64,000 nt of DNA from NCBI RefSeq assembly GCF_041435015.1, contig NZ_CP107989.1:682001-746000 (forward strand). The letters run 5' to 3'. This document shows positions 24,067-26,234 of this stretch, one piece after another. Every line of letters begins with the position of its first letter. Position 1 is the first letter of the stretch. Source of the DNA: Streptomyces canus (GTDB taxonomy: Bacteria; Actinomycetota; Actinomycetes; Streptomycetales; Streptomycetaceae). Below the pieces are notes generated by a model. The model did no database searches. It saw nothing but the letters and a program-made list of their open reading frames with translations, and had not been told where the DNA came from. The position numbers and the translations under genes are program-made.

Positions 24067-24192
24067 GAGCGGTCGCGCCTGACGTCCATGGGGTTCGGAC
24101 GCTCGCCGGTCAGGAGATCGAACTCATTGCCGGCTGCCGCAGACTCCACTCGTCTGCGGAAAAGAGTTGGAGGAAGGCGACGCCCCGCTGCT

Positions 24193-24345
24193 ACGGTCCT
24201 GATGGACCGTGAAGTCGTCGTATGGAGGTGAGACCCGTGAACACAGTTACCCATGGGTGCTCCCTCAACCCGTCACGGTCCGGCGGCTGACGTTCGGTGT
24301 CGCCAGGAGCGCCTGAGATCGAGGCACTCCTGGGAGGAGACTCCG
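24193..24345 (+). promoter_or_regulatory. Candidate translational attenuator before the acetyltransferase gene
   Basis: Four segments can pair in a mutually exclusive way. Segment 1 (24255-24263, inside the leader ORF) pairs with segment 2 (24306-24314): nine pairs, including two G-U. Segment 2 (24305-24314) pairs with segment 3 (24322-24331): nine base pairs and one A-C mismatch. Segment 3 (24327-24331, CTCCT) pairs with segment 4, the AGGAG of the Shine-Dalgarno (24335-24339). A ribosome halted on segment 1 would free 2 to pair with 3 and so expose the binding site, the logic of erm leaders. A further hairpin (24193-24199 with 24204-24210) competes with a nine-base match at 24273-24281. Confidence 0.55.
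24237..24290 (+). CDS. 17-residue leader peptide ORF
   Basis: GTG 24237 is preceded by a strong GGAGGTGAG and opens a 17-codon ORF, MNTVTHGCSLNPSRSGG, ending in TGA 55 bases before the acetyltransferase start. Its codons 7-9 overlap attenuator segment 1. It is too short for a normal protein; its position, strong binding site and overlap with the pairing segments suggest that its translation, not its product, matters. Confidence 0.55.
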   Translation: MNTVTHGCSLNPSRSGG

Positions 24346-25137
24346 ATGAACACAACACCTTTCACATCTGGCCTGAGCGAGAACGCCGTGATGATCACGC
24401 GCGTCGCGGACAGGCAATGGCATGCACTGGATGACGACCTCGTGGTCGGCCGCGGGCATGCGCATCATCGACCCGACGGACGCTTGTTCGTCAGCATCGA
24501 CGCCTGGCACGACTCCATCTTCGACCGGCTCGCCGAGACGATGCTGGCGGAACTACCGGCCCCGCTGTACACCGTGGTCGACGAGGCCGACGTCGAGCTG
24601 ACGGCCGGCTGGCGACGGGCCGGCTTCACGGTCCGGCGCCGTGAGTGGGAGTACGTCGTGCCGACCGACCCGCAGGTCACGGGGCTCGAAGCCGTCACGC
24701 CGCCTGCGGGCGTGACGATCGTGCCCGCCGGTCAGGCGGACGAGGGTCTGCTGCGGGCGGTGGACCGCGCGATCCGTGACGAAGTCGAGGCGACCGTTGG
24801 GTGGCAGTCCATGCCTGCGGAGGTGATCCCCCGGCTCGAAGGCGACACCATCGTGGACCCCTCGAAGTACGCGGTGGCCGCGGCGCCCGACCGCTACCTG
24901 GGTCTGATCCGGGTGGTGAGGGTGAAGCGACCGCGCATCGGGCTGGTCGCGGTCCGGTCCGCCGAGCAGCGCCGAGGCATCGCGCGGGCTCTGCTGGCCC
25001 ACGCGCTGGGGACACTGCACCGCTCCGGCGCCGCCGCGGCCTGGACCGAGGTCCAGGAGTCCAACCACGCGACCTCGGCGCTGCTCGGGGGCATCGGCGC
25101 CCAGCCGATGAGCAGCAACCTGGAGCTGGTGCGATGA
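24346..25137 (+). CDS. GNAT-family N-acetyltransferase
   Basis: A 263-residue protein. The C-terminal half is a GNAT fold with the acetyl-CoA loop [18 protein letters not shown] near 205-222 followed by [23 protein letters not shown]. The N-terminal 120 residues resemble a second, degenerate acetyltransferase-like half. I chose ATG 24346 because GGGAGGAG lies six bases upstream. The stop overlaps the start of a second IF-1 gene. GNAT enzymes acetylate aminoglycosides, ribosomal proteins, tRNA-related or small amine substrates; the leader and the IF-1 neighbour point to a translation-linked role, but the substrate is unknown. Confidence 0.75.
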
Positions 25138-25358
25138 CGAAGCACAAGAACGTCATCGAAGTCGAGGGCAGGGTCGTCGAGTGCCTGCGCAGCGCCATGT
25201 TCACCGTGGAGCTCGAGAACGGCCACCAGGTGCTCGCGCACATCAGCGGGAAGATCCGCAAGAACTACATCAAGATCATGCTGGAAGATCGGGTGCTGGT
25301 GGAGCTCCCGCCGTACGACCTGACGCGCGGCCGGATCGTGTTCCGGTACCGGAACTAG
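25134..25358 (+). CDS. infA: Translation initiation factor IF-1 paralogue
   Basis: A 74-residue S1/OB-fold protein. It reads [39 protein letters not shown] and [15 protein letters not shown], which is a full-length IF-1. It differs from the usual actinobacterial housekeeping form at its N-terminus (MTKHKN instead of MAKKQG) and in several surface positions. The housekeeping copy normally lies in the ribosomal protein operon with rpmJ, which is not here, so this is probably a second copy. It is translationally coupled to the acetyltransferase through ATGA. Confidence 0.85.
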
Positions 25359-25388
25359 CGGCAATCGGCACCCTCCGCGACATCTGAT

Positions 25389-25427
25389 CCTTGCCCCGGT
25401 CAAAGGCTTTCCGTGACCGGGGCAAGG
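25389..25427 (+). terminator. Terminator after the IF-1 paralogue
   Basis: A perfect 14-base-pair stem, CCTTGCCCCGGTCA with its complement, closes an 11-base loop, 30 bases after the infA stop codon. It closes the acetyltransferase-infA unit. Confidence 0.8.
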
Positions 25428-25502
25428 TCATGGCTTCGGGGTGAACTGGGAAAGCTGCGTTGAAAGCGCCCGCAGCAGGCATCCCGAAAGGCCCGCAACG
25501 CC

Positions 25503-26234
25503 ATGCGCCTTACCTCTGCGACGTCGTCCGACGGCGTCTTTGAACAGCTCTTTCTCCTCGGCGACATACCTGGGGTGCTATGGACTCCACGAGGTGCCGA
25601 CCGAACCCGCCCCCTGATCGCATTGGGGCACGGCGGCGGTCAGAACAAGAAGGCCCCTGGCATCGTGGACCGCGCACGCCGTTTTGTGGCCGAATGCGGT
25701 TTCGCCGTGGTGGCAGTCGATGCCCCCAGCCACGGTGACCGGCCGGAACACAAGGAGTTCACCCGGATTGCTACCGAGTACGAGGCGCGGCTTGGCGCCG
25801 GTGAGGGACTGGCCCCGCTGATCGCCGGCTTCCAGTCGCTCGTTGTCCGCCAGATGGTGCCGGAATGGCAGACAGTCCTCGACGCGGTCCAGAAGCTCAG
25901 TCACGTTGGCAGTGGCCCCGTTGGCTACTGGGGGGTGTCACTGGGCTGCGTCCTCGGCGTCCCGCTTGTCGCCGCCGAATCCCGGATCCGAGCGGCGGTG
26001 CTGGGCCTGGCCGGTGCCGAGGTGTCAGCCGAGACCGCCGCGCGGATAACCGTCCCGGTGGAGTTCCTCGTGCAGTGGGACGATGAGCGAGTGCCACGGG
26101 CCCAGAGCCTGGCACTGTTCGACGCCTTCGCCTCAACCGAGAAGACGCTGCACGCCAACCCCGGCAAGCACGGTGAGGTCCCGGCATTCGAGATGGACAG
26201 CACGCTACGTTTCTTCGCCCGGCACCTTGGCTGA
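25503..26234 (+). CDS. Alpha/beta hydrolase, dienelactone hydrolase-like
   Basis: A 243-residue serine hydrolase. It has the oxyanion segment LGHGGGQNKK near 40, the nucleophile elbow GVSLG near 143, Asp in QWDDERVP near 190 and the catalytic His in NPGKHGEVP near 222. There is no signal peptide, so it acts in the cytoplasm. The binding site is weak (GAAAGG about 12 bases upstream). It is a stand-alone gene with no pathway partner nearby. Confidence 0.72.
   Translation: MRLTSATSSDGVFEQLFLLGDIPGVLWTPRGADRTRPLIALGHGGGQNKKAPGIVDRARRFVAECGFAVVAVDAPSHGDRPEHKEFTRIATEYEARLGAGEGLAPLIAGFQSLVVRQMVPEWQTVLDAVQKLSHVGSGPVGYWGVSLGCVLGVPLVAAESRIRAAVLGLAGAEVSAETAARITVPVEFLVQWDDERVPRAQSLALFDAFASTEKTLHANPGKHGEVPAFEMDSTLRFFARHLG

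Follow-up and report, generated by a model that had tools for sequence, protein, structure and literature searches.

At the head of a two-gene operon in Streptomyces canus is a leader RNA with a short upstream open reading frame (uORF), followed by the genes of a GNAT-fold acetyltransferase (referred to here as GNAT) and of a second initiation factor IF-1. The leader was analysed within a stretch of 64,000 nucleotides (nt) of forward-strand DNA (assembly GCF_041435015.1, contig NZ_CP107989.1, positions 682,001–746,000), referred to here as the window, in whose numbering the coordinates of this locus are given. With a probability of about one half, we consider the leader to belong to an actinobacterial family, so far undescribed, of translational attenuators that contain a uORF and are read by the ribosome, in which the position of the first ribosome would select one of two folds around the GNAT ribosome binding site (RBS). 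Most probably, the ribosome controls how the downstream gene is translated when translation is under stress. An initial annotation of the window had described an erm-type attenuator; its observation is confirmed and is larger than stated, and its interpretation is partly supported. The uORF and the exclusive hairpins placed over the RBS are conserved with compensatory changes, and neither the stem proposed to hide the GNAT Shine-Dalgarno sequence (SD) nor a specific stalling peptide is.

The uORF, its promoter and two helix sets

The 17-codon frame noted initially at 24237–24290 is present behind its SD (24223–24230; Table 1), and a uORF precedes GNAT in 86 of 87 loci (L003–L089), in L045 only by a looser pattern; L022 has none, also by covariance model. 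One further locus (L092) carries the leader by covariance model, with 109.4 bits. Because GGAGGTG and a loosely defined segment 1 were required by the search pattern, the lack of variation in these letters cannot be counted as separate evidence. The 86 uORFs start with GTG (49) or ATG (37), and all close in frame 0 after 15–19 codons, 73 of them after 17. Frame +2 closes within the same range in 17 loci, and frame +1 closes earlier in all 86, trivially, by the TGA overlapping the start codon in (A/G)TGA. From the uORF stop to the GNAT start are 50–67 nt, with 14 distinct distances covering all three phases.

Within the uORF is segment 1, the first of the four pairing segments of the initial annotation, and its offset from the start codon, taken modulo 3, is 0 at 36 loci and 1 at the other 50, so that the same RNA is read as GCSLNPS in the clade of this locus and as WVLP in most other clades. 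RNA and uORF length are conserved and the peptide across segment 1 is not, which speaks against the peptide-specific stalling of the erm type that had been placed at codons 7–9.

Upstream of the uORF is a promoter of the kind activated by WblC, for which the consensus GAAAWY-N3-TKGMNN-N16..19-TANNNT and transcription starts 7–8 bp downstream are described (PMC7157823). The promoter of this locus, GAAAAG-AGT-TGGAGG-18-TACGGT, agrees with 12 of 13 consensus positions, the unmatched one being the last base of GAAAWY. A score of at least 11 of 13 is reached in 70 of the 86 GNAT loci, against 0.5% of shuffled sequences, and in all 86 the −10 element sits 23–27 nt 5′ of the uORF SD. The genome also encodes a Wbl protein (L316) with GVWGG and an RGRP AT-hook, which we take to be WblC. 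The promoter lends indirect support to the proposed role of the leader in drug or translation stress.

An alignment (A1) of 86 leaders, 85 of them distinct and 27 belonging to the clade of this locus (59 others), fits two mutually exclusive helix sets. The first combines 1:2, the pairing of segments 1 and 2, with a helix P2 over the uORF stop; 96.0% of its cells are paired (37–50% in slid registers), and it contains 17 double-change cells against 5.2 in shuffled alignments (0 of 500 shuffles). The second combines a helix P1, the pairing 2:3 and a helix P5, with 84.2% of cells paired (slid registers, 33–49%) and 69 double-change cells against 35.6 (0 of 500). Segment 2 is common to 1:2 and 2:3, as the initial annotation had proposed, and segments 1, 2 and 3 and the SD AGGAG are all present where it had placed them; P1, P2 and P5 were absent from it.

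Taken singly, 1:2 is paired in 98.8% of cells and P2 in 91.8%, with two P2 pairs changed on both sides. P1 is paired in 89.3% of cells (85 distinct leaders), also with two pairs changed on both sides, and its own strands score better, narrowly, than all of 2000 swapped permutations. The own strands of P5 likewise exceed 2000 of 2000 permutations, and by eye its letters vary together between loci (UAGGUGUC/GACACCUA, UAGCUGUC/GACAGCUA, AGGCGUCG/CGACGCCU and GUGUCCUC/GGGGACAC). P5 extends from directly 3′ of the uORF stop to the SD and start codon of GNAT, encloses 2:3 and, in most leaders, is the helix entering the RBS. At the centre of 2:3, a standard pair occurs in just 7 of the 85 distinct leaders. 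The compensatory changes support, rather than prove, the helices 1:2, P1, P2 and P5.

The stem 3:4, initially thought to hide the GNAT SD by pairing it with CTCCT, is largely confined to the clade of this locus; outside it the sequence is mostly CTCCTGAAAGG-like, and P5 enters the RBS instead.

Table 1. Elements of the leader and operon in the window
Element	Position	Strand	Remarks
WblC/WhiB7-type promoter	24159–24197	+	GAAAAG 24159–24164; −35 TGGAGG 24168–24173; 18-nt spacer; −10 TACGGT 24192–24197
Predicted transcript start	24204/24205	+	First or second base of P1; from the published WblC start distance
P1 5′ strand, GGACCGUGA	24204–24212	+	Predicted transcript 5′ end; partner 24273–24281
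uORF SD, TGGAGGTG	24223–24230	+	From sequence
uORF, MNTVTHGCSLNPSRSGG	24237–24290	+	17 codons, GTG start, TGA stop
Segment 1, GGGTGCTCC (RNA GGGUGCUCC)	24255–24263	+	Within the uORF; partners segment 2, or the uORF SD region in the predicted free RNA
P1 3′ strand, UCACGGUCC	24273–24281	+	Within the uORF; from alignment and folding
P2 5′ strand, GGCGGC	24282–24287	+	Final two sense codons of the uORF
P5 5′ strand, UCGGUGUC	24294–24301	+	Directly 3′ of the uORF stop; overlaps the P2 3′ strand
P2 3′ strand, GUCGCC	24299–24304	+	P2 and P5 mutually exclusive
Segment 2, GGAGCGCCT (RNA GGAGCGCCU)	24306–24314	+	Common to 1:2 and 2:3
Segment 3, AGGCACTCCT (RNA AGGCACUCCU)	24322–24331	+	Partner of segment 2
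GNAT SD, AGGAG	24335–24339	+	From sequence
P5 3′ strand, GACUCCGA	24339–24346	+	Extends to the first base of the GNAT start codon
GNAT-fold acetyltransferase, 263 residues	24346 (ATG)–25137 (stop)	+	Pfam Acetyltransf_1
IF-1 paralogue, 74 residues	25134 (ATG)–25358	+	ATG overlaps the GNAT stop (ATGA); TIGR00008

A leader family before unrelated genes

Two covariance models, R1 (55 leaders) and R2 (54 leaders of several target classes), recover the leader well beyond GNAT. Within the genus, R1 has 118 matching places in 53 of 61 genomes; within the class, R2 has 76 in 46 of 158 genomes, representing 26 of the 83 genera sampled (both totals of places summed by hand). In the window, R2, whose seed includes the leader of this locus, has one strong match (24222–24348, E 3.3e-21), the next of six listed having E 0.039. 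Against the 4227 models of Rfam the window has no match at the gathering threshold and 24100–24420 none at E<=1; seven leader loci of other target classes have none at the gathering threshold. No published description of the leader was found among the listed titles and abstract openings of the open-licence literature, the part of the literature covered by the search.

The same genome contains three matches: this locus (C1:706222), C1:872836 and C1:9266662; a fourth, partial match with E 0.056 was disregarded. The gene at C1:872836 is an NCBIfam rifampin monooxygenase equivalog (837.2 bits, cut-off 800), and that at C1:9266662 a putative protein N(5)-glutamine methyltransferase (TIGR03704, 424.6 bits, cut-off 248.8). 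Target genes were classified for 40 of the 118 R1 and 46 of the 76 R2 places, a hand-picked set whose proportions mean little: 41 alpha/beta hydrolases, 26 PrmC-related methyltransferases, 7 rifampin monooxygenases, 5 patatin-like proteins, 1 GNAT and 6 unclassified. For 28 of 30 further R1 loci, partly overlapping that set, the targets are 12 GNAT, 12 hydrolase and 4 monooxygenase genes. The output is therefore not IF-1-specific: a second IF-1 does follow GNAT, as initially described, and the same leader stands before at least four other gene families.

In one branch, comprising GNAT, the monooxygenase and most of the hydrolases fetched, the uORF has an ATG or GTG start, and promoter scores in this branch are 11 and 12 at two monooxygenase loci and 11–12 at 8 of 9 hydrolase loci scored. 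The uORFs ahead of the patatin-like proteins (L282, L284, L285, L292 and L293; a putative label read from the sequence) also start with ATG or GTG.

The methyltransferase uORFs are distinct. Behind a strong SD, all 26 fetched (L213 and 25 others) start with ATT (18, including L233, which was read by eye), ATC (6), ATA (1) or GTT (1), and never with ATG, GTG or TTG. Frame 0 closes after 16–21 codons in 25 of 25 scored, and frames +1 and +2 are open to the gene in 17 and 19 of them; the kept in-frame stop is the main evidence that these uORFs may be translated. Their promoter scores are only 7–9 in 19 of 19 loci examined. Among the hydrolases, ten leaders have an ATC or ATT start, and promoter scores are 7–8 in 6 of 6 ATC leaders examined; uORFs of the hydrolase class are shorter (14 codons in 5), and by eye its leader varies little between families. 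In three ATC hydrolase leaders (L219, L243 and L302) frame 0 has no stop ahead of the gene, and the uORF as such may be lost.

Pairing in the methyltransferase class was compared for 24 of the 26 loci, L291 and L299 being dropped by the pattern. Complementarity is 30.7 between the uORF SD and segment 1 (letter-shuffled, 19.3) and 23.3 between segment 2 and a segment after the main SD (18.5); for neither pairing are own strands better than swapped ones (1101 and 1304 of 5000 swaps as good), nor for a hairpin of segment 2 with the SD (2111 of 5000). The swap test gives modest support for 1:2 (216 of 5000) and P2 (62 of 5000).

Two single loci stand apart. At L249, where the promoter score is 12, a weak match to the leader (E 3.2e-4) precedes a 308-residue protein matching neither Pfam nor NCBIfam, and at L217 (G221) a leader copy with an altered SD region has no evident gene downstream and is possibly decaying.

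A proposed choice of fold by ribosome position

In the mechanism we favour, the WblC/WhiB7-type promoter should make the mRNA appear under translation stress, and the position of the first ribosome would select the fold. In the upstream fold, 1:2 and P2 over the uORF stop would leave P5 unable to hold the GNAT RBS; in the downstream fold, 2:3 would form and P5 would close on the GNAT SD and start codon. A ribosome completing the uORF would erase segment 1 and P2, so that the downstream fold wins and expression is off. Were a ribosome or 30S complex detained at the start codon of the uORF, segment 1 and P2 could pair as the RNA is transcribed, and expression would be on. This scheme supposes translation of the uORF, arrest at the uORF start as the signal and a 1:2 that persists long enough once formed; the assignment of on and off to the two folds is likewise presumed and is backed by folding only partly.

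The initial annotation had suggested folding the leader with and without segment 1. Without it (24264–24348), P5 and 2:3 are predicted (z −0.8), as they are for 24292–24348 alone (z −3.1); the complete leader of this locus (−68.3 kcal/mol, z −3.0) shows no 1:2, segment 1 pairing with the uORF SD alongside P1, P2, 2:3 and a local SD hairpin. Over the 86 leaders, the full RNA without a ribosome gives at equilibrium 0.93 for 2:3, 0.73 for P1, 0.43 for P5, 0.02 for P2 and about 0 for 1:2 and 3:4. At every ribosome position 2:3 remains dominant (0.89–0.93) and 3:4 about 0. At an earlier stage, with the transcript ending after segment 2, a ribosome at codon 1 brings 1:2 to 0.72, compared with 0.02 for no ribosome and 0.00 for one at codons 5 and 8, and P2 is 0.50 without a ribosome and 0.00 with one at codon 17. 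When either fold is forced on the 59 leaders outside the clade of this locus, the openness of SD/AUG is 0.53/0.66 in 1:2+P2 and 0.39/0.42 in 2:3+P5.

Several results weigh against the proposed switch. Whatever the ribosome position, 1:2 does not exceed 0.02 in the full RNA and P2 stays at 0.00–0.06, so that a switch through 1:2 would have to be kinetic. A ribosome at codon 17 also gives 1:2 of 0.48 at the segment-2 stage, and extending the transcript through segment 3 lowers 1:2 to 0.07 and brings 2:3 up to 0.85 even for a ribosome at codon 1. Mean RBS accessibility hardly differs (0.40–0.49) wherever on the uORF codons the ribosome stands (86 leaders). With forced folds, the 27 leaders of the clade of this locus have an SD openness of 0.63 in 2:3+P5 and 0.34 in 1:2+P2, and over all 86 leaders the two are equal (0.46–0.47). 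The P5 helix of this locus, which has a U.U mismatch, is about 0 in the ribosome-free full RNA and reaches 0.5 only with a ribosome at codons 13–14. In the alignment, pair-level double-change counts and pair types are no better than in shuffles (429 and 116 of 500 for P1+2:3+P5; 224 and 220 of 500 for 1:2+P2), and the loci are related, so that the shuffle and swap tests overstate significance.

The opposite polarity, that of the initial annotation, is doubtful. In it, a drug-stalled ribosome on codons 7–9 masks segment 1, 2:3 forms and the SD is freed from 3:4. All four segments exist at this locus, and in its clade, where forced 2:3+P5 has the more open SD, forced 1:2+P2 brings 3:4 to 0.50 (0.23 in the 59 other leaders). 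Residues 3 and 5 of the uORF are Ala, Ser or Thr in 78 and 68 of the 86 loci, a context that some peptidyl-transferase inhibitors prefer. Against this polarity stand the lack of conservation of 3:4 outside the clade and its near absence from the full RNA, the enclosure of 2:3 by P5 and the unconserved peptide at codons 7–9.

A further reading, tentative and rather unlikely, would make the family a sensor of initiation itself, reading a 30S or 70S complex stuck at a start codon behind a strong SD. The AUU, AUC, AUA and GUU starts of the methyltransferase branch, of the kind that IF3 rejects, would make initiation on the uORF report initiation stringency, and the second IF-1 would feed back on the same step. 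If so, the state of initiation would be coupled through one RNA design to an extra initiation factor, to a PrmC-related methyltransferase and to enzymes that inactivate drugs.

Direct binding of a ligand or protein by the RNA, with the uORF as a mere landing site for ribosomes, would suit the large amount of conserved primary sequence and the little-varying hydrolase-class leaders; we regard it as quite improbable, since the frame-0 stop is kept despite length changes in the GNAT and methyltransferase classes and P1, P2 and segment 1 are situated within or across the uORF. Very unlikely is a specific nascent peptide that stalls the ribosome and is itself the sensor, in the manner of ErmCL: WVLP is frequent in uORFs outside the clade of this locus and VL[PS] recurs in other target classes, but the clade itself reads the same RNA as GCSLNPS, and L225 is similarly shifted in the methyltransferase class. 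A purely coding constraint, with GNAT starting at ATG 24253 and the leader as its N-terminal part, is rejected by the phase variation between uORF and GNAT, although the frame 24253–25137 is open at this locus.

Ribosome-read leaders are usually described gene by gene. A leader that recurs ahead of unrelated genes and is absent from Rfam offers a means of finding, from sequence, genes responsive to ribosome trouble, and makes testable both the purpose of the second IF-1 and a role of non-canonical uORF starts as sensors of initiation fidelity.

The operon and its relation to known systems

Downstream of the leader, GNAT and the IF-1 gene form a unit. GNAT matches Pfam Acetyltransf_1 (31.8 bits, cut-off 20.7), and its AlphaFold model has a mean pLDDT of 85.1. 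The IF-1 paralogue is a full-length infA equivalog (TIGR00008, 110.1 bits, cut-off 61.15, positions 2–69 of 69) and is 69% identical to the other IF-1 of the 10.68-Mb genome, whose surroundings, read by eye, are a ribosomal-protein region. GNAT matches occur at E<=1e-3 in 112 of 297 genomes of the family, many of them weak. Among 90 GNAT loci examined (30 from the family-genome search and 60 from further searches, picked for strong matches), 88 have a same-strand IF-1 gene after GNAT, and the remaining two are 36% identical second copies. More than one IF-1 is present in 43 of 121 family genomes (searched with the IF-1 paralogue and counted by hand from the table), and 42 of the 43 also have GNAT, partial in G077 and split in G081. 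In the exception, G043, which has no GNAT match, the second IF-1 (G043:C33:35831-36052) is 92% identical to the paralogue of this locus.

A further 89 loci, 80 of them the best 80 of 279 and some duplicating earlier ones, divide into 83 with both IF-1 and uORF (L093–L175) and 6 with neither (L176–L181, GNAT identity 35–54%). Leader, GNAT and IF-1 also occur jointly in Amycolatopsis, Actinomadura, Nocardia, Micromonospora and Planotetraspora. Four plasmid records have a GNAT match, three of them from Streptomyces with at least 80% query coverage; the phage sequences searched for GNAT gave no match. Two GNAT copies lie close together in Amycolatopsis sp. WAC 01376, and the first of them reads ATC at the start-codon position (L133:2501-2503).

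Following IF-1 in the window is an alpha/beta hydrolase gene (25503–26234) of a family that has its own leader copy elsewhere. Just 5′ of it, at about 25460–25502, GCGCCCGC..GGCATCCCGAAAGGC resembles by eye a relict 3′ half of the hydrolase leader; R2 has no match there.

Translational attenuators of the erm type, such as ermC, have a short uORF with its own SD, competing segments and control of the RBS without a terminator. The leader described here shares the first two and would share the third, and would work like a ribosome-read attenuator that, judged by sequence, lacks two defining erm features: its 3:4 is unconserved and it has no conserved stalling peptide. It differs also in the helix P5 entering the RBS, in its several unrelated target genes and in the AUU- or AUC-started uORFs of some classes.

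The uORF attenuator of wblC/whiB7 is likewise actinobacterial and belongs to the same stress circuit, and is described as acting through a transcription terminator (PMC7157823, PMC10727445), whereas no terminator-like site was found in 24100–25560 of the window. In the Streptomyces ARE5 leaders tiaA and are5sc, drugs are reported to stall the ribosome at the uORF start codon (PMC12421871), the event proposed for the present leader; by their description, those leaders differ in having short gene-specific uORFs (MLV, MVGDDDISG) and a terminator/antiterminator scheme. MAB_4324c of Mycobacterium abscessus is reported to be targeted directly by WhiB7, and its purified protein to acetylate amikacin mildly (PMC10727445). 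Its product, MAB_4324, is a tandem GNAT and the best match in the PDB for the GNAT model (7q3a, E 3.1e-14), although the two are only 20% identical.

Non-canonical starts controlled by IF3 are described for infC (ATT in E. coli, ATC in Streptomyces) and sigR (GTC, with a AGGAGGTG ribosome binding site; PMC5472188). There, by that description, the main gene itself starts with an AUU-, AUC- or GUC-type codon, and here it is the uORF, in the methyltransferase leaders and in some hydrolase leaders, that begins with such a codon.

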